Source: a virus. From it: a stretch of 20,344 bases of DNA. The translations under genes were made by a program, and so were the position numbers. Positions 6,602 to 19,468 of the stretch are shown here, piece by piece. A model generated the notes under the pieces. It searched no databases and was not told the origin of the DNA. It worked only from the letters and a program-made list of their open reading frames with translations. The stretch spans positions 1 through 20,344 of the IMG/VR virus record IMGVR_UViG_3300021519_000096; one strand, given 5' to 3'. Within the stretch, counting starts at the first letter, position 1. Each line of letters starts with the position of its first letter.

Positions 6602-8814
6602 TACCAGTCGCTCCTCGTCCTGTTGCCACCGGCAGGCGCGGCGATAGCCTGCCCTCCAGCATTAGGCATCATTTTAACGCCCATGCCGCGTATGGTAGCG
6701 TTGGGGTTTTTGCTGTTTGTCAGATCGGACACGTCACTCGGCGTCCACGGGATTGCGGCGGCCATCCTGGCTTTATAGCTTCTCAGTAAATCCTTTTGTT
6801 CTGAAGAAACGAACGGAGAAACCAAAAAAGAATTTATCGCGTTATCGGCTTGTTGGCGCATTTCGGCCAGTTGCCGCACTGTCGTAAGCCGCGTTTGCCC
6901 CCCTTGCATGACAAGGGCGTCGTAGCTTTCCGACACTTTGTCAGTGACTGATAGGCCGCCGGTCGCCAAGCCGCCCATTGCGCGATTAAGGCCGGCATAA
7001 GTTGTTCTGATGTCTTGCGCCTCTTGCGACGTAAGCGTGCGAGTAAGCGCACCCAGAGGCGTGTTTTTGATATTGTAAAGCCATCCCAGGTTGGGATTCG
7101 TGGAGGAAAGCTTGGAAAGGTTTTCCAAGCCGGAGGTCGCGTCTCCTGCGCTTGTCATTGTGCGCATAATAGCCGTTGAGGCTCTTGCCCCACCGTTTGG
7201 GGCCAATGTGATCCCATTGGGATCAAGTTTGTTCCCTTTCATGTCGATATAAGCGCCTGCGTTCTTGTCAAAAGAAGCAAGAATTTCTTCTGTTTTGCCA
7301 TTCACCGTGCGTTGAAGAAGGGTCGGCTTCAAGAAGTTGTTTTTTGACCCGCCAGGCGCTTGATAAAGCACTTTCGCGCCGCCATTGCTCGGCTTGGCCA
7401 TGCCGGGGCCAGGCTCGACATGCACGTGCGTGCCTTCATCAATCACGTCAAACCCAGGCATCTTGACCTTCAGGGCAGCGGCCATCTGGGCGGTGGAGAC
7501 GCCGGGCGGCGGGCGATAATCCCGCGCGTTGTCGCTCAGATGGTAGCTGTCAGAGACGCCGCCGACCGCAGCGTTTTTCTCAGGCGTGCGCGCACCGCTG
7601 GTGATGGTCGCGCCGGGGATAAGCCCCGCCACTGTGGATTCAATCTGAGCGCCGAAAGTGCCAGGAGCGGCAGGCGCTGAAGGTGAGCCGCCGGGTTGGA
7701 TAACGCTTGCGCCTTGGTTGACCACCATAGTGCCGCCAAGTGTTCCCTTTTTGGACTGGTCAATGTATTGGGCAAAGAAGTTAGGATTGGTGGGGTCTGG
7801 AGGAGTCCACCCACTACCTACAGCGTCAAGGTACTCATCATACACACTTTTTCGGGTTGGAGGCTTCATATCAGCCACAACCATTTCTTTGACGCCTGGT
7901 AGCCCCGCAACAGGCAAGGCATTTATGTACCTGTCTTGTAGTTCTGGAGGCATTCCGCTGTTCCGAATAGCCCTAACCATGTCGGCTACGTCGCGAGCGT
8001 CATTGACCCGCTTCATATCGAGCGCCTTCTGGGCGTCTTCGATCTTGGCGGTTCGGTCTTCCGCCTTGGTCTGCTTCTCAGTGGCAGACGAGTAGAGCAG
8101 CTTACCCATGCTCTCGGTCATGGGGCCGCCGCTCAGCATCGCCTTAAGCGCCATCTGCTGCTGTTCGGCAGGCGACAGAGCGCGGTCCAGCGTGACATCC
8201 CTTTGAGCCGGAACGAACCCTTTCGCCATTTGCGCTGCTATTTCAGATGCACTTTGGATTTGCGGAGGCGGAGCAATAGTTTCTCCACCTAAGGCGCGAG
8301 CAAGATTAGCCTGAGAGGAATCAGGCGTAGGCGCGATAGGCGGCAGGTTGGACTGCGTGATAGGCGCTTGAGGCGGGGCCATTGCGGGCGCAGGCGGGGG
8401 CATCGTAGGCGCGGCAGTGGGGTCAACCGGGGCCGCTTGGCCGCCTTTCGATAGAAGGGACGCCAGCTTGCTGCCGAGGCCAGTAGACGGCTGCATTTGC
8501 GGCCCGGCTAGGCTGCGCACGTTGTCCATAGTGACGGTGTGCTGCATTTGCTCAGGCAGGCCAGCAGCAGTTTTGCGGTCTAGATCGGAAAGCGCCCCAG
8601 CCTGCTTGATCGCCCGCGCTTCCTTGATCTGACCGCCGACCTGCCCAAGCACCTTAGCCAGCACGGCGCTCCAGGGGATCGGCGCTTGAGTGCCCTTGTA
8701 GGACTGGATTTCGATAGGCTGCTGCGCCTGCTGTTGCAGCATTTCGGCAAGCTTCTTCTGCCGCTCGATTTCAGCGACTTGGGAGGCGTAATTGGTCAGG
8801 CTGACAGTCGCCAT
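6601..8814 (-). CDS. Internal virion protein with embedded M15-type peptidase domain
   Basis: Encodes 737 residues; ATG 8814 overlaps the upstream stop by one base (TGATG). The N-terminal ~110 residues are helical and Gln-rich (AEIERQKKLAEMLQQQAQQP). Residues ~120-180 are a Pro/Ala linker. Residues ~400-470 form an M15_3-like peptidase: TSGARTPEKNAAVGG, then a SxHxx(G)xAxD site in SYHLSDNARDY with H425 and D432 (Asp in place of the usual Gly), then THVHVEP with H463/H465. The last ~200 residues are helical with a Gly-rich AMGGLATGGLS segment. A peptidoglycan-cutting domain inside a large virion protein next to other ejection-type genes suggests it opens the cell wall during DNA entry, comparable in role to the transglycosylase domain of T7 gp16. 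Domain call good, role inferred. Confidence 0.8.
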   Translation of the reverse strand: MATVSLTNYASQVAEIERQKKLAEMLQQQAQQPIEIQSYKGTQAPIPWSAVLAKVLGQVGGQIKEARAIKQAGALSDLDRKTAAGLPEQMQHTVTMDNVRSLAGPQMQPSTGLGSKLASLLSKGGQAAPVDPTAAPTMPPPAPAMAPPQAPITQSNLPPIAPTPDSSQANLARALGGETIAPPPQIQSASEIAAQMAKGFVPAQRDVTLDRALSPAEQQQMALKAMLSGGPMTESMGKLLYSSATEKQTKAEDRTAKIEDAQKALDMKRVNDARDVADMVRAIRNSGMPPELQDRYINALPVAGLPGVKEMVVADMKPPTRKSVYDEYLDAVGSGWTPPDPTNPNFFAQYIDQSKKGTLGGTMVVNQGASVIQPGGSPSAPAAPGTFGAQIESTVAGLIPGATITSGARTPEKNAAVGGVSDSYHLSDNARDYRPPPGVSTAQMAAALKVKMPGFDVIDEGTHVHVEPGPGMAKPSNGGAKVLYQAPGGSKNNFLKPTLLQRTVNGKTEEILASFDKNAGAYIDMKGNKLDPNGITLAPNGGARASTAIMRTMTSAGDATSGLENLSKLSSTNPNLGWLYNIKNTPLGALTRTLTSQEAQDIRTTYAGLNRAMGGLATGGLSVTDKVSESYDALVMQGGQTRLTTVRQLAEMRQQADNAINSFLVSPFVSSEQKDLLRSYKARMAAAIPWTPSDVSDLTNSKNPNATIRGMGVKMMPNAGGQAIAAPAGGNRTRSDW

Positions 8815-10286
8815 CAGATAGCTCCGTAATCAACCATCATGTAGCCGTCAGGGCGGTGATAGACGGCCTCAGGCTTAACCTCCAGAAGCTCCTGAGCCAT
8901 CACGCCGCGCTCCCTGCGGTCAAAGATGTCGTACTCATAGATGCCGATGCCGAGTTCGTGAGTGCCGACGCGCTTGATGTTGGACTTCAGGCGGCGGTCG
9001 CTGCTCGCAATTATCTGCCCGACGCTTCCGAACATCCCGCCAAGCGCCTGCATGTTCGCATTGCGCGCCGCCATCTGCTGCCCGTAAACGTCCTGCGCGT
9101 TCTGCGCTTGAGCCTGCACGCCTTGGAACACGGGGGCTGCATTCACGTTCTGCCCGGCATAGGCTTGGAACTGCGGGTTCTGGATCTGCGAACTGGACAT
9201 CAGCGCGTTGATCTCGTTCAGCGGCTGATTGCGCAGGGCGAGGTCTTGCTGGAGTTGGGCTTGCTGCGCCGCATTGCCGAACTGCGCCGATTGCAGGGCT
9301 TGGTTATAACCCTGGTTCTGCGAGCCCATGAGCTGCCCGTAGTTCTGGGCATTGGACTGCATTGCCTGATTGAAGTTCTGCCCGATGGCCGCATTCTGAA
9401 GCTGCTGCGACGAAAGCCCCTGACCGTAGTTCTGGCCGACCGCCGCGTTCGAGGCTTGGTTGGCTTGCAGCCCTTGGCCGAAGTTCTGGCCTAAGCCGGA
9501 GTTGTAGAAACCGCCCTGCTGCACGGCCTGATTAAAGCCCTGCTGGTTGGCTCCCATGTCCAGATTGATGCCCTGCAAGGCAGCTTGGCTCAGCAGGTCG
9601 TTCTGCTGCTGGCTCTGGTCCGTCATGGCGTTTGTGTAGGCTTCGCTGCCCTGCATGATGCCTTGGTTGGCAAGGCGCTGTTCAGTGGCCGCCGACTGCC
9701 GCTGTAGCTGCGGCGCGAGGCGCTGCATGATGGCGGCCTGGCCCGTAGTGCCCGCATTGACCGGCATCTTGGCGACGCCAGATAGGTCGAGGCCCTGAAG
9801 CGCCCGGCCGTACTGGTCTGCGTTGAAGCCTTGGGCCAGCCCGTACTTGTCCGCCGCGATGGACCCGGCTTGGCCGAAGTCACCGCCGCCGGGAGCCCCG
9901 CCGCCCTGAGGCACGGAGCCGTAGCTGACAGAGGATTGCAGCGGGTTTTGATTGGTAGGCTTGAACCTAGAGTTCAGAACATCCTGCGCCGTGCCGACGC
10001 CTTGCAGGCCAAGCTTGGACATAGCCAACTCGACTTGCTGCTGAGCATCAAGGTTGGCTTGAGCCGCAGGCGTCAGGCTTTGCGTGACCGTGGCTTGAGA
10101 GCCGCCTCCGGGCAGGTTGGGGTCTTGCGCGTAAGTTACGGTCTGGTTGCCGTAGGGCGTATAGATGTTGGGATTGCTCAGCACCGAGCCTTGTTGGGCA
10201 GCGGTCAGGTTGGCCGCGCCTTGGGCCTGCGCAGCGCCGGTGTAGTCAGGAACTGCCGGCGCGGCTGGTGTTGATTTTTTGCCCAT
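8814..10286 (-). CDS. Gln/Asn-rich tail protein with C-terminal S74 chaperone domain
   Basis: Encodes 490 residues with AGAGGA just before ATG 10286. It begins MGKKSTPAAPAVPDYTGAAQ and has the IYTPYGNQTVTY block seen at the start of a class of podophage virion proteins. Residues ~215-375 are very rich in Gln, Asn, Ala and Gly, with degenerate repeats of the type NFGQGLQ / NYGQGLS / NFNQAMQ / NYGQLMG about 20-22 residues apart. Residues ~428-490 form a short intramolecular chaperone (peptidase S74) domain opening SSDRRLKSNIKRV and containing RRERGVMAQELLE. In known S74 proteins this domain trimerises a fibre or spike and cuts itself off just before the Ser of the SDxRxK motif. The product is probably a trimeric tail or needle-like part. 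S74 call strong; exact virion role unknown. Confidence 0.82.
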   Translation of the reverse strand: MGKKSTPAAPAVPDYTGAAQAQGAANLTAAQQGSVLSNPNIYTPYGNQTVTYAQDPNLPGGGSQATVTQSLTPAAQANLDAQQQVELAMSKLGLQGVGTAQDVLNSRFKPTNQNPLQSSVSYGSVPQGGGAPGGGDFGQAGSIAADKYGLAQGFNADQYGRALQGLDLSGVAKMPVNAGTTGQAAIMQRLAPQLQRQSAATEQRLANQGIMQGSEAYTNAMTDQSQQQNDLLSQAALQGINLDMGANQQGFNQAVQQGGFYNSGLGQNFGQGLQANQASNAAVGQNYGQGLSSQQLQNAAIGQNFNQAMQSNAQNYGQLMGSQNQGYNQALQSAQFGNAAQQAQLQQDLALRNQPLNEINALMSSSQIQNPQFQAYAGQNVNAAPVFQGVQAQAQNAQDVYGQQMAARNANMQALGGMFGSVGQIIASSDRRLKSNIKRVGTHELGIGIYEYDIFDRRERGVMAQELLEVKPEAVYHRPDGYMMVDYGAI

Positions 10287-10692
10287 AACGGTCCTCTAGA
10301 AACCTGCAATCCGCGCGCTTCATTGTGTATAAAACAATGTCCCCGTTGGGATGGCAATCCGCTAGCCTGGCTTCTGGAATGAACCCCATGTTCTCCGCAA
10401 GCCGTGCACTCTCGATATTACCGACTTCAACGTGGCAAATCACTTTTTCGACGCCACAGACATTGAACGGATAATCAAAAATCGCAGCCAGGAATGATGG
10501 TGTCATCCTTCCTTTGATGGCGATGTGAGCGATGATGGAACGCCTGTTCCATCCTTCGTAAATCACACCTGCAACAATCTCGCCGTCTTTCACTAAACCA
10601 ATCGCAGCCGAGCGCCCCGAGTGGAAACCAAGCTCAAGTTCATCAGCTACCCAATAGCCTATTCTGTCGCCTGATTCTACACGCCAGCCCAT
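10246..10692 (-). CDS. GNAT-family acetyltransferase-like protein
   Basis: Encodes 148 residues from ATG 10692 (overlapping the nozzle gene by 16 bases) or 159 from ATG 10725; neither has a clear ribosome binding site, so the start is unsure. The sequence fits the GNAT fold: SAAIGLVKDGEIVAGVIYE (strands 2-3), then SIIAHIAIKGRMTP, then KVICHVEVGNIESARLAENM with GFIPEA (the acetyl-CoA region with the conserved N and the GF turn). The classical Q/RxxGxG/A loop is not obvious. Similar small acetyltransferase-like genes sit among tail genes in many podophages; their substrate is unknown. The 3' end overlaps the next gene by 41 bases. Confidence 0.75.
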   Translation of the reverse strand: MGWRVESGDRIGYWVADELELGFHSGRSAAIGLVKDGEIVAGVIYEGWNRRSIIAHIAIKGRMTPSFLAAIFDYPFNVCGVEKVICHVEVGNIESARLAENMGFIPEARLADCHPNGDIVLYTMKRADCRFLEDRYGQKINTSRAGSS

Positions 10693-12251
10693 CCGGCCTG
10701 ATACACGATGTCTGTTGAGGCCCATTCGATCTGTAGCCCTATGCTAGCCGTCTTGAACTGGATCGACGCGCAATAGCCAATGCCGGTGATGCCGAGCCAT
10801 GTGTTCGTAATCACAGTGTCAGTGCCCCACAGGCCAACATCCCACAAGGACGTGTCCCAGTTGGCGTAAGACGTAGGCGTAAAGGTCAAAGCCCCCGTGT
10901 TGTCCGATACGTCAAAATCCACGTTGACGCCGACAAGGGTTGCCGGTTGACCGTTGGAAAACACGCTAGGGCGGGCACGGGTGAAGTACTTCTTGACGCC
11001 GCGAGAGCCGAAATAGTTGAACGCCTGAAGGATATTCGTGGCGATGTTGGAGCCGTTGTCGGAGTAAGACGACGTGTCCCACGCCTTCCCGACAAAGCCG
11101 TCACCGCCAAAATAGGCATTGTCGTTGTAAGTTTCCCAGACGTTCGCCGCCCAGCCTGTGAACTGACACCACGACTTCGTGATGGTGTTCATGACGTACT
11201 GCTCTTGCGTGCCAGAACCGACAGGCACGTTTATCCAGAGCGCATTGTTCTTGGCGTTGTAAAAGACCTGCCAACCCACAGAGGCATGGGTTCCGCCATA
11301 GGCCGTGGTCGCCGCCGTGATGGCCCCCTGGATCTTGTTAGAGAGCGCCACACGCGGATCGAGCCGGGAACTTTGCAGGGACGCGGCCATAGGCAGAAGG
11401 CCGTCATACGTCAGGATAAGCAGGTCCCCGGCCCATTTGAGCATGGACCTGTCGCCAATGGGCGAGCCTAGTTTCCAGACGCCAATGAGCGCCCATGTGG
11501 AAGCGCTAGCCGGGTCGGTTCCGGCGTAGACGATAAGCTCGCCATTGCTGGTGGCGAAGGCCAGGTTGTCATCCACGCCATAACCAGCGTCGATAGTCCA
11601 CGCATCGAAATCGACAAGGTGGCCGCCGTCTCGGGCAATGGCGCTCAGGTCGAACGCCACCGCTGTGCCGCTGATAGCGTTGGTGGGCAGATACCAAGCC
11701 TTAAGCGTGTCCTTTTGGAAGAACCAAAGCCGGTTCTTGAACAGGACGACATTGGAAAGCGTGTTGGAATTGACGCCGGCAATGTAGGGCACGGTTGGAG
11801 CCGTCGTCCCCACGGTAGCCCATGTGGACCCGTCATAGACCCGCCCCGCATCAACGCCGTTGACGACGAAAAGGTAGCTACCGCCCGCCGTCGTGATGTT
11901 CGTGTGCGCCGTGATGCCGCTAGTGAGGCCCGTGACGACAGGAGCGCCAACAGCCCCGCCGGATGTCACGTCATAGATTTTGCCGGTGCTGGTGACGGCA
12001 AATAGCTTGCTCGTCGCCCCGCCGGAATAGTTCATCAGGCTCTGAACCTCGCCATCAAGGCCAGTGCAGTGCTGCGTATAACCCCCGCGTAAAACGACGT
12101 TTGACACCGTTGGGAACATGTTCACCAACGTAATGGCGTCCATCGGATCCATGTTCGCGTAGGAGTCGCGCGCGTTCCACCCGCCTACCGGGGCAGGCAG
12201 GGACTCCACTTGCGCGGTGTTTCTCTGAACCATCGCACGCGAATTAATCAT
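10677..12251 (-). CDS. Tail nozzle / hub protein, P22 gp10-like
   Basis: Encodes 524 residues; ATG 12251 overlaps the adaptor stop as ATGA, which favours it over the ATG six codons later. The N-terminus (LPAPVGGWNARDSYANMDPM, then LVNMFPTVSNVVLRGGYTQH) has the VNM and RGGY blocks typical of the P22 gp10-type packaged-DNA stabilisation or nozzle family. The body is beta-rich with repeated short blade-like blocks (LFAVTSTGKIYDVTSGG, YLFVVNGVDAGRVYDG, NVVLFKNRLWFFQKDTLKAW), consistent with a beta-propeller. In P22 and T7 the equivalent protein forms the short tail tube below the adaptor ring and carries the fibres. Adjacency to the adaptor gene supports this. Confidence 0.82.
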   Translation of the reverse strand: MINSRAMVQRNTAQVESLPAPVGGWNARDSYANMDPMDAITLVNMFPTVSNVVLRGGYTQHCTGLDGEVQSLMNYSGGATSKLFAVTSTGKIYDVTSGGAVGAPVVTGLTSGITAHTNITTAGGSYLFVVNGVDAGRVYDGSTWATVGTTAPTVPYIAGVNSNTLSNVVLFKNRLWFFQKDTLKAWYLPTNAISGTAVAFDLSAIARDGGHLVDFDAWTIDAGYGVDDNLAFATSNGELIVYAGTDPASASTWALIGVWKLGSPIGDRSMLKWAGDLLILTYDGLLPMAASLQSSRLDPRVALSNKIQGAITAATTAYGGTHASVGWQVFYNAKNNALWINVPVGSGTQEQYVMNTITKSWCQFTGWAANVWETYNDNAYFGGDGFVGKAWDTSSYSDNGSNIATNILQAFNYFGSRGVKKYFTRARPSVFSNGQPATLVGVNVDFDVSDNTGALTFTPTSYANWDTSLWDVGLWGTDTVITNTWLGITGIGYCASIQFKTASIGLQIEWASTDIVYQAGWAGV

Positions 12252-13153
12252 CGGCCATAGCCAGAATCCGGGATATTATCGTATCCAATCAATATGTTAC
12301 CTGGTCGCGGCGCAAAGGACAGGTTCGCCGCCGAGGTGTCTTGGGCAATCGACGTTTCCAGTTCCGTCAGATAGTCGCGATAAAGCGCGGTCGTATCGAA
12401 GCCCTTGGCCTGGAAATATTTCAGCTTGGTCATAAGCACCATGACCCGATCCGGGTAGATGCAGGTGTCCGTATCTACCGTGAAGCTGGTCTTCACCGCG
12501 CCGGCAGCCGACAGAGCCCAGCCATTGCTGCGGTACTCGTAGCCGAGCGATTCAGCGTTGGAGAAGCCCGGCCAAATCTGAAAATAGTTGCCATACAGCC
12601 GCCAGCGGATGCGCGGGCCGGTGGCGATATAGCCGCTTAGAAGCCACTCCCACTGCTGGGCGTCCTCCGGGCCGAGCATCTCCCAATGCTTCGACTTGTC
12701 CCATTGGGTGCGGGGGACGATGGCATCGTAATCGGCAGGGAAGGCGTACTTCACCTTCTGGAAATAGATCGTCCCGGCCGTCGCCGCAGAGGTGGAATAT
12801 TGCGAGACGGTAACAGCCGTGGCTGAGTCCACGCTGCTGATAAACGTGGCGTTCGGAAAGCCGGTCCCGACAACCATGAACGTGGTGTCGAGACCCGCCG
12901 TCGAGGGGATGCCGGTGATCTGGAGGGAGGTTGTCGTATAGGTGCCGGTGGTGGTCGTGTACTCGGTGAAGAAGGTTTTTGCCTTCGTCAGTTCACGCCA
13001 GTCTGCCTTGCGCAGCAGTTCATAACCGCTGGCATTCATAAGCGCCAGGATCTGAATGACGTCTTGGTTCGCGTTGCCCGCTACCGAAGTGGGGGTAGGG
13101 ACGCCAAGTTCATTCGTTACCTGCGTCACCAGTTGCAGCATCGTGCTCGACAT
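12248..13153 (-). CDS. Head-to-tail adaptor protein
   Basis: Encodes 301 residues; ATG 13153 lies inside the end of the 188-residue gene (44-base overlap), with another ATG at 13141. The N-terminal helical part (MLQLVTQVTNELGVPTPTSV ... ALMNASGYELLRKADWREL) and the block FPADYDAIVPRTQWDKSKHW are characteristic of podophage adaptor proteins (T7 gp11/P22 gp4 role), as is the helical C-terminus (YRDYLTELETSIAQDTS). Residues ~65-130 form a Thr/Ser-rich beta insert (ITGIPSTAGLDTTFMVVGTG ... SQYSTSAATAGTIYF) that may be a surface or Ig-like domain. The protein would form the ring joining portal and nozzle. The next gene is the nozzle, as expected. Confidence 0.82.
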   Translation of the reverse strand: MSSTMLQLVTQVTNELGVPTPTSVAGNANQDVIQILALMNASGYELLRKADWRELTKAKTFFTEYTTTTGTYTTTSLQITGIPSTAGLDTTFMVVGTGFPNATFISSVDSATAVTVSQYSTSAATAGTIYFQKVKYAFPADYDAIVPRTQWDKSKHWEMLGPEDAQQWEWLLSGYIATGPRIRWRLYGNYFQIWPGFSNAESLGYEYRSNGWALSAAGAVKTSFTVDTDTCIYPDRVMVLMTKLKYFQAKGFDTTALYRDYLTELETSIAQDTSAANLSFAPRPGNILIGYDNIPDSGYGR

Positions 13154-13676
13154 CGGTGTCTTTCGCCTTTTTGGGGATTCGCGTCCGAAGCAGGAGGTTT
13201 ACCTGCTTCTTAAGCTCCTCAATTTCCGCGTTGGCCTTCTCAAGCTTTTCGTCGGCCTTGGTATGGTTCTTCTCAGCCAGGAACGCCCTGGCCCGCTCAC
13301 GCATCCCCACCGCGCCCATGCCGACCCGCTGAAGCTGGGCGTCAGAGGCAGTCGCGACTTGCTCGACGGTCCGGAACTTCAGGATCTCAAGCTCTAGGAG
13401 CTGAACCTCGCTGATGTCGGCCGGCTTTGCCTTGCGCCAGTCCTCCAGGGAAATCCCTTCGGGACGCTTGGAGTTCTTCATCTGGTGGTACAGCCATTGT
13501 CGCGGGAAGCGTTCCTTGTGGTGCTCCCGCACCGGCGTCTCAATGATGTTCGTCTTGTCGCCGGGTACAGCGATCCGAACGAAAGGTTGGCCCTTGTAGG
13601 GGCCTTCCTCTTTGAACTCGTAAAACTCGACGTGAAGCTGAGAGTCAGCGTTTTGAACGTCGCTATCGAGAGCCAT
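13110..13676 (-). CDS. 188-residue virion-operon protein of unknown function
   Basis: ATG 13676 is preceded by AAGGA with six-base spacing. I recognise no enzymatic motif. The N-terminal ~65 residues look beta-rich (LHVEFYEFKEEGPYKGQPFV, then IAVPGDKTNIIETPVREHHK), and the phrase ERFPRQWLYHQM is similar to small proteins found between capsid and adaptor genes in other podophages. The C-terminal third is a likely coiled coil (ADEKLEKANAEIEELKKQVN, about residues 141-161) followed by a charged tail. Its place between capsid and adaptor genes suggests a minor head protein or assembly factor, but no function should be assigned. Confidence 0.7.
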   Translation of the reverse strand: MALDSDVQNADSQLHVEFYEFKEEGPYKGQPFVRIAVPGDKTNIIETPVREHHKERFPRQWLYHQMKNSKRPEGISLEDWRKAKPADISEVQLLELEILKFRTVEQVATASDAQLQRVGMGAVGMRERARAFLAEKNHTKADEKLEKANAEIEELKKQVNLLLRTRIPKKAKDTDVEHDAATGDAGNE

Positions 13677-13685
13677 TGGTTGTCC

Positions 13686-14045
13686 TTAAGCGGTGAGAAC
13701 GGAAGCCCAGGTCGTCGCACTGGTGGCGAACAGAATCATAGTCTTGGCGGTGGCGATGTTCACGCTGGAAGCAGCCGCGTTGACGGTAGACCCGGTGGCC
13801 GGGTAAATCGCAACAGTCTGCCCGCTGTCGTTACGAATGCCGACCATAGCGCCAACTTCAGTTGGCGGCAGCTTGACGCCCGTAGAGGCCGACGAGGTAG
13901 TGATCGTATTCCAGACAGCCGAAAGCTGGAGAGCATCGGCAGTGGTCGAGCCAACAGCCACGAGGCCAGTAGCGCCGTCGCCGCAGATCGAGGTGGTCGA
14001 GAGAGGAGCGTTGCCAGAGGCGAGGACGCGAGAGGGGATAGCCAT
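13686..14045 (-). CDS. Small Ser/Thr/Ala-rich virion protein
   Basis: Encodes 119 residues; AAGGA lies eight bases before ATG 14045. The sequence is low in charge and beta-rich, with short Ser/Thr/Ala runs (WNTITTSSASTGVKLPP, ATGSTVNAAASSVNIATA), consistent with a beta-sandwich decoration or minor capsid protein. A similar small protein (16069-16611) lies on the other side of the glycosyltransferase/methyltransferase gene, so the two structural genes flank the enzyme. No closer family is recognised. Structural role inferred from composition and position. Confidence 0.65.
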   Translation of the reverse strand: MAIPSRVLASGNAPLSTTSICGDGATGLVAVGSTTADALQLSAVWNTITTSSASTGVKLPPTEVGAMVGIRNDSGQTVAIYPATGSTVNAAASSVNIATAKTMILFATSATTWASVLTA

Positions 14046-14056
14046 GACTTAATTCC

Positions 14057-16012
14057 TTATGTCTTAACGAACCAAGTGAAGTTGTCACCTGGCTCCAGGG
14101 TTAGGCCATGAGCAGCTACATATTCGTCTACGGCCCGTTTCACGCCCCATTGAGGGTAGTCCACGTTATCATAATCATGGCCGCACAATAAACCACCCGC
14201 GCGAATTTTACCGGCCCACGCTTCTATGTCCGAACGACAGCCTTCGTAGCTATGGTCCGCGTCGATAAACACGAAGTCGAAAGGCCCATCCATCGCCTGC
14301 GCAGCATCCACTGATTTGGCGCGGTGGATAATCGCCCGCTCGCCAAAGGATGACACGGCTTGGCTGGTCCGCTGGAAATAGGTTTCCTGCGCTGCGTCGG
14401 TCAGATCCGCGTGATAGTCGCCCGACGCCTTAAGGCTAGGCTCATAGTCGCCCCATGAATCCACCAGATGCAGGGTCAAGTCGTGCCGGCCCGCTAGCAG
14501 GCGTTCGGACAGTTCGCCCGTGAACACGCCAATCTCTACGCCAGCGACGGGGCCGTCAGGCAGGCGGGACAGGATTTCCCGAGCCCGCATATCCACGGCG
14601 CTTTCCTCTACGCCTTCTCGCGCGATGTGGGCTAGCAGGCCGTCCCCCGCGACCGTGATGACGCCGTTGAACCGCTGGGCGTATTCGATGAAGTCCTGCG
14701 CCTGGCCGACCATCCACGGCGCGCATTTGAACGCCCGCTCGCCATAGACCACATCCATGATGGTCTCGTTGTCGTTCCACGCTTGCGGGTAGACGTGATG
14801 CTCGTCACCGAAATAACAGCTATCAATCCCAAACAGGTGAAGCGCGCGATAGCCGCTTAGTTCGGCTAGCAGCATGGCCTTCATGGCAACGGTGGTGCCA
14901 GCGCCGAGTAGGTGCACCTGACGCTCCTTCTCGTCTTTTAAAAGCTCTTCAACGCCTTCGGACTGGCAATGAAACAGCGTTACGTCATAGCCATCCAGAG
15001 CATCAAAAACGTCTGGGTCACATTGCGAGGCTATGAAATATTTAGTGCGGCTCTGGGGATTGCCGACAAACGCAACGTTCTCGGGCCTAGCGTCTATGAT
15101 GACGTGCCCGTCAGGAACAATCCCCTGGCCCACAAGATAGTCATACGCCCCATTCAGAGCCCAAACCTGCTGGCCTAACGCTTGCCGCCGGCGCAGCGTG
15201 TTGAGTTCGGTCTTAAGGGACGGCGCACCGCCCACGATGCAGACCTGGCCGTCGTGCGACTTCCAATTGAAATCAAACCATTTCAAATATCGATCACAAG
15301 CCAACCGGATATTGTCGTGAACCTTCTCCTTAGCCGTGTTGCACACCGCGTCCAGCTTGGCGCGAGTCATGCCGTTCAGCTTCCACACCATAGGCACCCA
15401 GCCGTTTGTCACTTGATGTGGCCTAGGAAGCCCGTGGAACACCACTACAGCCGCTTTGTCGGGAGATACGCCCGCAGTTACCTTGTAGCTGACAAAGGCG
15501 TCAGGCGCGATTTTCTGCCAGATGTCAGGATTGAGCTTACATTCCTCAATCCAAGCCTGATCGCCGCCAACAATTTTAGGCATCCCCGCCTTATGCCAAT
15601 CAAGCCAAATGGACTTGGTCTTGTTTGATACGCGCCAGCCCATGACGGATGACTGCAAGCCGTTGTGCCGATAAAAGTCGTTTAGAATGGCAAACTCGCC
15701 CTGGTAATCGGCTACCGCATCCAGGCGTCCGGTCAGCACCGTATCAAGGTCAAAATACAGGACGCGCTCGTCGTCCTGAAAGACGCCGGGGGCGAACAGC
15801 GCAAGCTTGTTCCACCAGCCTTCAAGGCCGGGATGCGGCAGCGGGCGCACTTCAATTTCAGGACCGTAGTCGCCAGGGCTATCGGTAAAGACCGTAAACT
15901 TCCCTGGATAGCCGGCGGGTAGATTGCGCCTGACCATATCGTTTAGGATTGTAACGTACTCTACGCCGCGTTCTTCATAGTTGTTCGCATTGATGCAGAC
16001 GACGTTTAGCAT
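14057..16012 (-). CDS. Three-domain glycosyltransferase - DUF115-like - SAM methyltransferase
   Basis: Encodes 651 residues from ATG 16012, chosen because AGAGGG precedes it at normal spacing and the product then begins with a strand (MLNVVCINANNYEERG). The frame is open up to 16111, but that extension overlaps the upstream gene and looks non-coding. Residues 1-205 are a nucleotide-sugar glycosyltransferase: VLYFDLDTVLTG gives the DxD motif at D88/D90, and VVVFHGLPRPH the late His-Gly block. Residues ~250-470 resemble DUF115/MptE-like proteins (CIVGGAPSLKTEL, WALNGAYDYLV, HLLGAGTTVAMKAMLLAEL, HLFGIDSCY). Residues ~485-651 are a class I methyltransferase: VEIGVFTGE (SAM loop), LHLVDSWG, and FDFVFIDADHSYEG. 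It lies among virion genes, so it is made late and may modify a virion protein or host glycan. Domain calls good, target unknown. Confidence 0.85.
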   Translation of the reverse strand: MLNVVCINANNYEERGVEYVTILNDMVRRNLPAGYPGKFTVFTDSPGDYGPEIEVRPLPHPGLEGWWNKLALFAPGVFQDDERVLYFDLDTVLTGRLDAVADYQGEFAILNDFYRHNGLQSSVMGWRVSNKTKSIWLDWHKAGMPKIVGGDQAWIEECKLNPDIWQKIAPDAFVSYKVTAGVSPDKAAVVVFHGLPRPHQVTNGWVPMVWKLNGMTRAKLDAVCNTAKEKVHDNIRLACDRYLKWFDFNWKSHDGQVCIVGGAPSLKTELNTLRRRQALGQQVWALNGAYDYLVGQGIVPDGHVIIDARPENVAFVGNPQSRTKYFIASQCDPDVFDALDGYDVTLFHCQSEGVEELLKDEKERQVHLLGAGTTVAMKAMLLAELSGYRALHLFGIDSCYFGDEHHVYPQAWNDNETIMDVVYGERAFKCAPWMVGQAQDFIEYAQRFNGVITVAGDGLLAHIAREGVEESAVDMRAREILSRLPDGPVAGVEIGVFTGELSERLLAGRHDLTLHLVDSWGDYEPSLKASGDYHADLTDAAQETYFQRTSQAVSSFGERAIIHRAKSVDAAQAMDGPFDFVFIDADHSYEGCRSDIEAWAGKIRAGGLLCGHDYDNVDYPQWGVKRAVDEYVAAHGLTLEPGDNFTWFVKT

Positions 16013-16068: not shown

Positions 16069-16611
16069 TTAGGTAGTCGGACCTTGGAAATGCGGACGGT
16101 CCATCGAGCACACCACGGTAGAAGTCGTGGAGGTCACGGTGGCCAGGTTCGCAGAGGCGAGGCCGAGGATGTTCTTGCCAGCGGCCGAGGTCTGCATCAG
16201 GCGACCAGTGGTGGCCGATTGATACATGCGACGGGTGCCAGCCGGATCGACCTTCACGGCGGACTTCTTGACGACCGCGAGGCCGCCAATCTGATACCAG
16301 CCGAAAAGACCCGCCGTGCAGGCCGACATCGCCACAGCCACCGGCTGCGAGAGGTTGGCCGTGTTCGGGCTCAGGGCAGTCTGCCAGGTAGTCGGGCTAT
16401 AGGTAACAACGTTACCGATAACCGTGCTGGCAACGCCCAGGAGAAGGATAAATTCACCTTCTCCATAGGTCGGGTCAAACGCCCGAGCGACCATACCGAG
16501 AACGTTCGGCGGGGTCGGGATAGCGGAGGAGCCGTTCGCCATCGTGACACCCGAGTCGGTGTTCGCGATCTGCAACAGGCCCAGCTTGGGTTCGTCAAAA
16601 GTATAAGCCAT
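16069..16611 (-). CDS. Small virion protein, probable head decoration protein
   Basis: Encodes 180 residues. A strong AAGGAGG lies eight bases before ATG 16611, indicating high expression. The protein is Ala/Gly/Ser/Thr-rich and low in charge, with an N-terminal MAYTFDEPKLGLLQIANTDS and a beta-rich body (EGEFILLLGVASTVIGNVVT, LFGWYQIGGLAVVKKSAVKV). It follows the major capsid gene directly, with only the stem-loop and the binding site between, a usual place for a decoration or cement protein. A resemblance to a class of small proteins downstream of podophage capsid genes is noted, but no fold motif proves it. Confidence 0.72.
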   Translation of the reverse strand: MAYTFDEPKLGLLQIANTDSGVTMANGSSAIPTPPNVLGMVARAFDPTYGEGEFILLLGVASTVIGNVVTYSPTTWQTALSPNTANLSQPVAVAMSACTAGLFGWYQIGGLAVVKKSAVKVDPAGTRRMYQSATTGRLMQTSAAGKNILGLASANLATVTSTTSTVVCSMDRPHFQGPTT

Positions 16612-16665: not shown

Positions 16666-18485
16666 TCAAGCAATCAAAACTCCCTGGAACTGAGAGCCCG
16701 AGCAGGTCATATTGCCCGCCCAGCCAATCAGTTTCACAATGGCGTCTTGGTTGACCGATTGGCGCTCGCCACCAATGGGGACAAAGTTCCGATCAACGTG
16801 CGGGCGGAAGAACAGGTACTTGGTGTTCAGGAACCACATGTGGTTCGCCGTAGCCGCAGCACCGATACCACCGTCAAGCACGACGTCGGAAGCCATACCG
16901 GCCCCGTAGTACTTCAGCGAGGCGAAGCCAGCGCCGGCCATGCTCGAACCGGAGTCCGAGATACGCTGGATGGCTTGCAGGGACTGAAGGTACAGGCGGT
17001 AGTAGTTGTTGTCCGCCACGATCAGATCCGGCTTGTCCGTACCACGGATAAGCTGAACCGCCAGAGCATCCATGTACTGCTGGATGTTGGAAGCCGTGAC
17101 CGCCGCGCCGCCGTTCGTGACACCCGAATACGCAATCGACTGCCAGAAGGAGAACGAGGCGCGGTTGATGCCGCCGTAGGTGCCCGAGGACGGAGCGTCC
17201 GGAACCGCAGCGGCGAGGCCGGTAATGTTCTTACCGCTGTTGCCGGTGCCGTCCAGATAGATGTCGCCGCCGATGCGATTGGCCAGTTGGGCCTCCGCAA
17301 CAGCCATACGCCCATCCAGCAGGTCAATGATGGCTTCCTTGCCCGAGTTCTGGATCATCTCCAGGCCCGAGATAGTCACCGCCGAAGCGTACTGCGTGAT
17401 GGAGAACTGAGCCGCCGAGATAGGCGAGTTCTGCGACACGTTAATCACTTCATAGCCGGAATAGCTATTGGTGTTGTTCGTGGTCGAGTCGTTGTACATG
17501 ATTTCTTGCAAAATCACGTTACCGCCGGAGAACGTCTTGACGTTTCCACGGTCCTTCAGACGCCGAAGAAGGGCGTTGTTGTTCTGAACGTTGTCGGCCA
17601 GCTCACCACTACGGCTTTGGATGTTCGTCAATCTGTTATCGCGTGGGCTCTTTATCCCTCGCTTCTGCATGTTCGACCATGCAGTTCGGACTATCTCATC
17701 ACGCCCGTTTAGGCGTGCAGCGCGCTCGTGGGCCTTTACCGTCCGGTCTGGACTCCATGACCTAGTCTCTGAACCTTCAGCGCATTCCTGCGCCGCTTGG
17801 CTGCGGATTGCCGTATCCCGGTTTTCCCGCAATTCACGCTGTTTTACATCGCCTCGAAGTGCTATAATGTCTGTATGGCCAAAATCCCCTTCGAGAGCAA
17901 AATCTGCCCTGCCTGCGGCGAGCGCAAGCTGCGGAGCGAATATTACAAGAAGGGCGACGCCGTAAGCCACAAATGCAAGCCGTGCTCCCTGGCGGACAGT
18001 CGCCAGCGCGCCGCGCTTTATTTTGGAAAGTACCGCAACTACCAGAACGATTGGCGCAAGGAACGCTACGCCAAGGATGCGGAGTACCGCGAGAAGGTCG
18101 CGGCCCAAAAGAAAGCGCGTTACGAATTGCATAAAGACGCCCTGGGCGAAGCCAGAAGGCTTCGATGGGCTACAGATCCCCTGTGCCCGGCAAGATTGAA
18201 CTTCCGGTACAAAGACGTGAAGGACCGCACGCCGAAGTGGGTTGACCGTAAGGCTTTGTTGGCCATCTACGCGTCGTGCCCCAAAGGCATGGAAGTCGAT
18301 CATATCATCCCACTGAAGGGATTGATCGATGGGCGTCCTGTGAGCGGGTTGCATGTCCCTTGGAACCTTCAGTATTTGACCACTGAAAAAAACCGAAAGA
18401 AGCACAACCGGATTTCGGAAAAAGACATCGTTACACAATCCAGTTAAGCGATGATGTCGCTGATCGAGCTATTGGCAAAGGCCAT
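16666..18485 (-). CDS. Major capsid protein, gene split by a group I intron
   Basis: Exon 1 is 18447-18485 (13 codons, MAFANSSISDIIA), and without splicing is followed at once by TAA. Exon 2 is 16666-17628 and begins TNIQSRSGELADNVQNNNAL. Joined, they give 333 residues with an unbroken N-terminus SDIIATNIQSRSGELADN. This matches the start of a podophage capsid family (…SDIIATTI-SRS…) with the pattern NVQNNNALLRRLKDRGNVK, SGYEVINVS and ISGLEMIQNSGKEAIIDLL. The body fits an HK97-type fold capsid of that family, ending SQFQGVLIA. AGGAG lies six bases before ATG 18485, and the scaffold gene is directly upstream. A readable frame continues from exon 2 into the intron as far as 18438, but it encodes non-capsid sequence and has no proper start. 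Intron junctions are inferred from frame and homology. Confidence 0.88.
17629..18446 (-). ncRNA. Group I self-splicing intron (818 bases) in the capsid gene
   Basis: The 5' exon ends in U and the intron ends in G, as group I introns require. Core helices pair by eye on the minus strand: P3 CAGCGTG (17841-17835) with CGCGCTG (17724-17718); P4 TTGCGG (17832-17827) with CCGCAG (17806-17801); a P5 CCG/CGG between them; a P6-like GCGCA-GGAA-TGCGC hairpin; P7 GACTA in TTCAGAGACTA (17773-17763) with TAGTC (17693-17689); P8 CACGCC/GGCGTG (17717-17700); P9 CTGCATG/CATGCAG (17684-17665). Extra sequence between P7 and P3' suggests subgroup IA. The first ~570 bases are occupied, on the other strand, by an HNH gene. 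A P1 pairing between exon 1 and AACGATG is possible but has a C-A mismatch and a U-A instead of the usual U-G, so the exact 5' site should be confirmed. Confidence 0.87.
17863..17868 (+). promoter_or_regulatory. Consensus -10 box for the intron-borne HNH gene
   Basis: A perfect TATAAT lies six bases before ATG 17875 on the plus strand. A usual -10 to +1 distance would place the first transcribed base at or next to the A of the ATG, predicting a leaderless mRNA. There is no Shine-Dalgarno sequence between box and start, in agreement. A -35 element is weak: TTTACA at 17843-17848 has only 14 bases of spacing. The box lies inside the intron between its 5' domain and P3. Confidence 0.5.
17875..18447 (+). 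CDS. HNH homing endonuclease, antisense inside the capsid intron
   Basis: Encodes 190 residues from ATG 17875. The frame is open from an ATG at 17797, but the extra 26 residues overlap the ribozyme core and lack protein character, while MAKIPFESKICPACGERK is a natural start. C11, C14, C34 and C37 form a CxxC...CxxC zinc-binding domain. Residues ~45-105 are basic and helical, likely DNA-contacting. The HNH site is at the C-terminus: VDHIIPLKG with D142/H143, N164 in VPWNLQYLT, and the ENRKKHN helix (N173, H177). The gene runs opposite to the capsid gene and intron, and its stop codon (18445-18447) includes the last base of capsid exon 1. It presumably cuts intronless capsid alleles to spread the intron. 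HNH call strong; homing activity inferred. Confidence 0.9.
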   Translation: MAKIPFESKICPACGERKLRSEYYKKGDAVSHKCKPCSLADSRQRAALYFGKYRNYQNDWRKERYAKDAEYREKVAAQKKARYELHKDALGEARRLRWATDPLCPARLNFRYKDVKDRTPKWVDRKALLAIYASCPKGMEVDHIIPLKGLIDGRPVSGLHVPWNLQYLTTEKNRKKHNRISEKDIVTQSS

Positions 18486-18507: not shown

Positions 18508-19458
18508 TCAAAAACGCTCGTTAATGTTGTCGAGTTGTTCGAGCAACATCGAGCGCCTGTCTTGCGCCTTGGTCGGGGTGCGAACTCCGGGTGTAGAGCT
18601 ACGAACGCTTACCGCAGCAGCCTTAGCGGCCTTGGCAGCCTTATCGGCCGCCTCCCTCTTAGCCGCTTCAGCCTGGGCTTGTCGGCCTTGGGCGATGCGG
18701 TCAAAGATCGTGTCGTTAAGGCGTGTTGCCTTTTCGTAGGCGTCTTCAAGGTTGGACGCGACACCACTGTTCAGAAGCTGAATCATGGTGGGGCGCACTT
18801 CCTCGAAGTGTTCCGCCTTCTTGGCAAACGCGCTGATTTCAGCCTCAAGGATTTGGTTTTGAGCCGCCTCCTGCTGCTGCTTCCAGCCTACGACCTCGCC
18901 ACGAACATTATTCAGTTCGTTTTGCAGGGCGTAAATCGTGGGATTGACGAATTCGCCCTGTGAGGCTGTGTCCGCTTCGCCCAGATTGATGCCGTACTGC
19001 GCTGCAAGCTGGGCCAGGTAGGCCACCTTCTGCTGCTGCGGCAAGGTACGGAGGTTGTGGTCGGTCTGCATCAGGGCCTGCACGGCAGACGCTGGGTCAA
19101 TGCCCAAGCCCTGAATGGTGGTCATGTAAGGCTCAACGGCCTTTTGCATCCTCTCGGCGTATTCAGCCTTGCCCAGAAGCGGCTGCACCCCGGCGCGCAT
19201 TTCGTCCTCGCGCTGCCAGACGTACTTGCGGAAGTCAGGATCCGCTGTAGACCACTTCTCCTTGTACTCGCTTTTCCAGCTAGACGGCGGCCGGCTCCAG
19301 ACGGGTTCTTCCTCTGCTTCGGGCGCGGCCTCGGCCGGGGCTTCGGTCTTGGCGGGCTCAGGCGCAGGGGCGGCCTCCACGCTGTCGAACTGCTGCGCCA
19401 GCAGTTCCTTGCGGTCTACGGTAGCTTCTTCAGGAGCGATTGACTCTTGGGTGTCCAC
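18508..19458 (-). CDS. Capsid scaffold protein
   Basis: GTG 19458 is chosen as start because AAAGGA ends six bases before it; the in-frame TTG at 19464 abuts that sequence and is too close. The product has about 316 residues. The N-terminal ~55 residues are acidic and Ala/Pro/Glu-rich and probably disordered. SRPPSSWKSEYKEKWSTADP (about 55-75) is a typical podophage scaffold block. Residues ~95-260 are helical with likely coiled coils (YALQNELNNVRGEVVGWKQQ), and the end is Ala/Lys-rich followed by LLEQLDNINERF, a plausible capsid-binding tail. It sits directly upstream of the capsid gene, the usual order. It would form the internal core for procapsid assembly and be removed later. Confidence 0.85.
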   Translation of the reverse strand: MDTQESIAPEEATVDRKELLAQQFDSVEAAPAPEPAKTEAPAEAAPEAEEEPVWSRPPSSWKSEYKEKWSTADPDFRKYVWQREDEMRAGVQPLLGKAEYAERMQKAVEPYMTTIQGLGIDPASAVQALMQTDHNLRTLPQQQKVAYLAQLAAQYGINLGEADTASQGEFVNPTIYALQNELNNVRGEVVGWKQQQEAAQNQILEAEISAFAKKAEHFEEVRPTMIQLLNSGVASNLEDAYEKATRLNDTIFDRIAQGRQAQAEAAKREAADKAAKAAKAAAVSVRSSTPGVRTPTKAQDRRSMLLEQLDNINERF

Positions 19459-19468
19459 GTTCAATCCT

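Follow-up and report, generated by a model that had tools for sequence, protein, structure and literature searches.

Genes at the locus

The window (the whole stretch analysed, 20,344 nucleotides, positions 1 to 20,344 of virus record IMGVR_UViG_3300021519_000096) carries a series of head and tail genes on its minus strand, within which lies an open reading frame of 651 codons with its ATG at 16012 and its stop at 14057. The ATG is preceded by CCAGAGGGAAA, a purine-rich stretch resembling a ribosome-binding site. From high to low coordinates the features are:

18508–19464, minus: probable scaffolding protein (positioned as the phiGT1 scaffold; syntenic in relatives)
16666–17670, minus: major capsid (major head) protein (phrog_9953, E 5e-100)
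16069–16611, minus: 180-aa head protein, here called deco, the proposed acceptor (phrog_29386, E 1e-22)
14057–16012, minus: fusion enzyme, GT8-like / DUF115 (Maf-like) / Methyltransf_24, 651 aa (ORF and profile matches, AlphaFold2 model)
15368–16012, minus: domain 1 of the enzyme, residues 1–215, GT-A glycosyltransferase, GT8/glycogenin-like (phrog_1962, Foldseek, profile, residues)
14588–15307, minus: domain 2, residues ~236–475, DUF115/MptE-like (PF01973, profile versus PDB, Foldseek)
14060–14587, minus: domain 3, residues 476–651, SAM methyltransferase of the sugar O-methyltransferase type (PF13578, Foldseek)
13686–14045, minus: 119-aa small protein downstream of the enzyme (occurs also in genomes without the enzyme)
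13110–13676, minus: 188-aa neck/virion protein, in the position of Mx8 p50 (phrog_20268, E 1e-10; synteny)
12248–13153, minus: tail tube A-like protein (phrog_6013, E 2e-40; synteny with phiGT1)
10677–12251, minus: tail tube B / P22 gp10-like stabilisation protein (phrog_5107; tblastn to 21 phage records)

The initial annotation had described a 651-residue fusion of a glycosyltransferase, a DUF115-like domain and a SAM methyltransferase, encoded after the capsid gene and between two small protein genes. Pfam and PHROGs matches confirm the fusion at its exact coordinates, to which we add the strand, and the PHROGs-annotated gene order agrees with its position, the small proteins being those of 180 and 119 aa. 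The start of the capsid protein was set from relatives of 333 aa and the ATG at 17670. Deco is homologous to the "major virion structural protein" of Myxococcus phage Mx8 (46% identity over 51%), and the 119-aa protein had no match in PHROGs.

Antisense between the scaffold and capsid genes lies a 216-aa HNH-endonuclease-like ORF (17797–18447, plus strand) with a zinc ribbon and a DHIIPL motif (Pfam HNH, E 0.12); in some relatives, too, additional ORFs lie close to the capsid gene. The family phrog_5107 is named "amidase", and by synteny and the phiGT1 annotation the protein at 10677–12251 is a stabilisation protein like P22 gp10 or T7 tail tube B. The ORFs at 8814–10286 and 10246–10725 encode a structural protein with a Peptidase_S74 (intramolecular chaperone) domain and, after the tail gene, a weakly GNAT-like protein, both conserved across this phage group.

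Domains and predicted active sites of the enzyme

Residues 28–213 matched the glycosyltransferase family phrog_1962 in PHROGs (E 1e-26). In Pfam, residues 254–400 matched PF01973 (MptE-like, formerly DUF115; E 5e-15, 56.1 bits against a curated cut-off of 34.6) and residues 492–614 matched PF13578, Methyltransf_24 (E 2e-14, above the curated cut-off). NCBIfam returned WaaZ alone, far under its cut-off, and profile matches to pilus-binding G3P and pseudouridine glycosidase were dismissed as chance. An AlphaFold2 model built from 35 sequences had a mean pLDDT of 90 and a pTM of 0.64, so the arrangement of the domains is uncertain. Foldseek on each modelled domain, a check proposed in the initial annotation, gave glycogenin, Maf and sugar O-methyltransferases as the nearest folds.

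For the glycosyltransferase domain the nearest PDB structures were glycogenin (E 4e-7) and GlyE by fold, and galactosyltransferase 6mw5 by profile search (E 1e-6). It has the GT-A fold with the DxD motif (DLD, residues 88–90), the catalytic-site Asp (D151 in GGDQ, 149–152) and the metal-binding His (H193 in FHG, 192–194) of GT8, glycogenin-like enzymes, these motifs being matched to those of glycogenin by eye. D88, D151 and H193 are kept in all 35 aligned homologues, and D90, the second Asp of DxD, in 31, with Ser in the other four.

The middle domain is nearest to Magnetospirillum Maf (5mu5) both by fold (E 8.5e-8) and by profile (E 1e-10). Profile matches to MptE (8sd5, E 0.01) and to a sialyltransferase (2drj, E 0.86) were weaker, so the domain stands nearer to Maf than to either MptE or GT42. 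The Pro and Ser of its GGxPS motif, D307, D397 and H406 are invariant in 35 of 35 homologues.

The C-terminal domain has the features of the Methyltransf_24 sugar O-methyltransferases, namely a class I SAM fold, motif I (E-x-G) and an acidic/HD metal site, the latter presumably of the MycF/NovP type; E493, G495, D518, D584, D586, H612 and D613 were likewise invariant (35/35). Its nearest folds are sugar O-methyltransferases: MeT1 (E 5e-8; E 0.003 by profile search), which is a sugar 1-O-methyltransferase (PMC9883506), NovP, MycF, CalS11 and SpnH. Degenerate active sites, which according to the initial annotation would refute its reading, were thus not found: the putative catalytic residues are nearly all invariant among the 35 homologues.

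Distribution and modular composition

Full-length homologues of the fusion were present in about 40 distinct viral genomes (40–74% identity), in the common gene order capsid, deco, enzyme, neck, tail tube A, tail tube B. Since so many distinct genomes repeat it in the same order, the fusion is neither an artefact nor a chance event. Two bacterial assemblies contain DUF115-containing relatives in this order, which are probably proviral. Compared as a whole, the enzyme had its best structural matches in two proteins of uncultured Caudovirales in BFVD (A0A6J5PVH5 and A0A6J7XC21, 700 and 685 aa). They share its MptE-like annotation, and differ in being metagenomic, without described function and 33–40% identical to it. 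Among cultured phages we found neither the full fusion (best coverage 32%) nor the stand-alone slot enzyme of contig L122, and a literature search for phage MptE-like glycosyltransferases gave no relevant report.

The place of the enzyme in this gene order, hereafter the slot, is filled in several ways. Counted with distinct capsid proteins, the architectures were GT-DUF115-MT24 (40), DUF115-MT25 (27), DUF115 alone (11), GT-DUF115 (3), DUF115-GT (1) and none (9). In the capsid-anchored loci the stand-alone DUF115 proteins have 264–281 aa, and those with a C-terminal Methyltransf_25-like domain 430–454 aa. The DUF115 domain is therefore the constant part of the slot, and the glycosyltransferase and methyltransferase are exchangeable. 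The initial annotation had spoken of a self-contained three-part module; this has to be corrected, only DUF115 being constant in the slot and the other two swapped or separate.

Three methyltransferase families (Methyltransf_24, Methyltransf_25-type and FkbM) are exchanged on the DUF115 core, fused or as separate genes, which argues for selection for O-methylation of the product rather than for one particular enzyme. In five of the DUF115-alone contigs with enough upstream sequence (L122, L131, L134, L144 and L170), a separate phrog_1962-type glycosyltransferase gene and an FkbM gene (PF05050) are grouped upstream of the portal gene. FkbM was confined to the DUF115-alone class among the 17 records tested; outside that test it was seen at the C-terminus of a fusion in a Rhodopila MAG (L173) and as a minus-strand match in L033. 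L110 and L157, with a stand-alone DUF115 gene, had no methyltransferase of the types searched. In L057 and L174 the slot contains a GT2 domain fused with GT8-like and DUF115 domains, without a methyltransferase.

Related genes in other phages

Unrelated phages have the three parts as separate neighbouring genes: in L070 and L080, two siphovirus-type contigs, they follow one another between the head-tail adaptor and head closure genes, the DUF115-type gene matching phrog_4603, "alpha-2,3-sialyltransferase". Tetraselmis virus S20 has sialyltransferase-like, glycosyltransferase and methyltransferase genes after its capsid gene, and in L071 a GT-MT24 fusion directly precedes the capsid gene. That the set recurs, co-linear or fused, in several head-gene settings speaks for a joint pathway. 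Proteins containing collagen-like GxY stretches are encoded upstream of the separate genes in the siphovirus-type contigs (L080, 3082–3585; L070, 5132–6013) and are possible alternative glycan acceptors. PHROGs names phrog_2675 "DNA methyltransferase"; the products of window positions 14060–14587 and of L080 5184–5759 resemble sugar O-methyltransferases, and the name is probably misleading.

Coliphage P1 (MH422554; L260, 4959–7517) has relatives of two parts of the enzyme. Its PmgQ belongs to the phrog_1962 glycosyltransferases (E 5e-128), PmgP is of the sialyltransferase/DUF115 type (phrog_2111 and, weakly, phrog_4603), and the ORF in the pmgO position, found with a DUF115-type query, is of this same type and has a VGSGPS motif. 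Unlike the fusion these are separate genes, and no methyltransferase was seen nearby. The three genes were reported to be nonessential for lytic growth (PMC10695390).

Association with the 180-aa head protein

In a non-redundant combined set, 79 genomes had both deco and the enzyme, two had deco alone (Mx8 and MW202489), none had the enzyme alone and 58 had neither. Throughout the capsid-anchored sample the enzyme never occurred without deco, and it was absent where the capsid gene is followed by an 88–100-aa protein instead of deco; all 76 targeted short-protein loci with capsid and tail genes lacked deco, DUF115 and the glycosyltransferase. Fisher tests gave p 4e-9 and 3e-37 without correction for phylogeny, and we therefore relied more on tree-based pairs. 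The capsid tree implied about 10 changes, and all five supported independent pairs were concordant (sign test 0.06, a value set by there being just five such pairs). PF01973 was also absent from the whole length of 19 deco-less contigs of 19–39 kb, so the link is not one of slot adjacency alone. The 88–100-aa replacement proteins (L124, 7934–8197; L133, 7942–8235; and relatives) resemble the N-terminal half of deco by eye.

DUF115 distances track those of deco best (r 0.74, versus 0.45–0.62 for other proteins), and the partial distance correlation between the two, controlling for capsid, neck and tail proteins, was 0.60 (permutation p 5e-4). Neighbouring genes may travel as a cassette and so be paired without any enzyme-substrate relation, and the glycan could then be placed on another virion protein, such as the capsid, 119-aa or tail protein. 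That the two genes adjoin, and that the triad elsewhere sits beside head-tail adaptor or closure genes without deco, would fit such an arrangement. We nevertheless consider it unlikely, given that 92–94% identical capsid proteins are found both in phages with the enzyme and in phages that lack it along with deco, and that enzyme-bearing and enzyme-less classes alike have the capsid, 119-aa, neck and tail proteins. The pairing moreover holds in genomes of the L137/L144 type, where deco and the enzyme are about 1 kb apart and the glycosyltransferase and FkbM genes lie beyond the portal gene.

The Ser/Thr-rich C-terminal motif of deco, TVTSTTSTV, was considered as evidence of a glycosylation site and rejected, as the classes cannot be told apart by Ser/Thr content (0.206, versus 0.228 in the short replacement protein; enzyme-bearing genomes are not set apart). 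A poor model of deco (pLDDT 64) had no significant Foldseek match.

Proposed function

From sequence comparison and the structural models we think it probable that the enzyme is a Maf-like system which glycosylates, and then O-methylates, deco. Mx8 and MW202489, with deco alone, and L110 and L157, with their stand-alone DUF115 gene and no methyltransferase of the types searched, speak against this reading. The DUF115 and GT8 domains would build a short glycan, one placing the initial sugar on Ser/Thr and the other probably extending it, in either order; we infer that they act on deco itself because Maf acts directly on protein. The C-terminal domain would O-methylate the sugar using SAM, so that with the predicted activities, in the predicted order and on the predicted acceptor and sugar, the phage head would carry a short, methyl-capped glycan. 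Its benefit, we would guess, is protection against proteases or antibodies, a more stable particle, or adhesion. The initial proposal of a virion-protein glycan that is then O-methylated is thus well supported by computation, through intact active sites, the nearest folds, the fixed place in the head operon and the dependence on deco.

The initial annotation had also offered alteration of a host surface glycan to limit superinfection. GT8 and FkbM enzymes are frequently directed at LPS, and phrog_1962 is filed under moron/host takeover, so that the enzyme might remodel LPS or capsule, limiting superinfection or changing the receptor in the manner of O-antigen-modifying morons. This seems less likely still than another virion acceptor: the position in the head operon is fixed in several phage types, and the enzyme depends on a head protein, being absent from phages with a near-identical capsid that lack deco. 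No membrane segment is apparent in the predicted secondary structure, though many LPS enzymes are cytosolic. A metabolic or genome-protecting fusion, with a genuine MptE-type diphosphokinase, for pterins or nucleotides, at its centre or a methyltransferase acting on DNA, is suggested by the Pfam name of PF01973 and the PHROGs name of the C-terminal family and is highly improbable, as the Maf profile match is far better than that to MptE, the best matches listed for the C-terminal domain are sugar O-methyltransferases and include no DNA methyltransferase, and the domains accompany glycosyl- and methyltransferases in head operons.

Modification of deco may also exemplify something broader. We give about even chances to a widespread, undescribed phage system in which a Maf-like DUF115 domain is dedicated to one decoration-type head protein, with interchangeable GT8 and O-methyl-capping modules, P1 pmgO, pmgP and pmgQ being of the same kind. 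Few cases of phage virion glycosylation are known, and the logic linking acceptor and enzyme is poorly understood. The proposal is open to direct test: the enzyme is named, there is a candidate acceptor, and phages of near-identical capsid protein, with and without the enzyme, offer a natural comparison. It also supplies a functional hypothesis for the unassigned P1 genes, which offer a laboratory test, and for many phage proteins annotated as "MptE-like" or "DNA methyltransferase".

Maf proteins (PF01973, Maf_flag10) are flagellin nonulosonic-acid transferases, and glycosylate this surface structural protein on Ser/Thr (PMC11339370). The likeness lies in the DUF115 domain. Maf acts on flagellin and has other flanking domains, whereas the phage enzyme has DUF115 fused to GT8 and methyltransferase domains and is paired with a phage head protein. 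The full Maf architecture, with N-terminal Rossmann-like and C-terminal helical domains, is absent; with GT8-like and methyltransferase flanks, this is a Maf-like domain and not a Maf protein. Phage enzymes can glycosylate phage capsids, as mycobacteriophages Che8 and Rita show: they encode glycosyltransferases, and their capsid proteins bear glycans (PMC11256854, citing Freeman 2023). The available text of that article describes an F1 phage with glycosyltransferase genes near the genome end, and a DUF115-GT8-methyltransferase fusion is not among the features it reports.

A parallel in layout is A064R of chlorovirus PBCV-1, a 638-aa protein with two rhamnosyltransferases and an O-methyltransferase, which makes the methyl-capped terminus of the glycan on the capsid; its second domain was described as a new glycosyltransferase family dissimilar to annotated rhamnosyltransferases (PMC9614988). 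A064R differs in coming from an algal virus and acting on an N-glycan. It resembles the phage enzyme in its size, its N-terminal GT-A domain with DxD, its second, unusual glycosyltransferase and its C-terminal SAM methyltransferase, and the order glycosyltransferase, glycosyltransferase, O-methyltransferase in one viral polypeptide is common to both, by predicted domain types in the phage enzyme and by published description in A064R.
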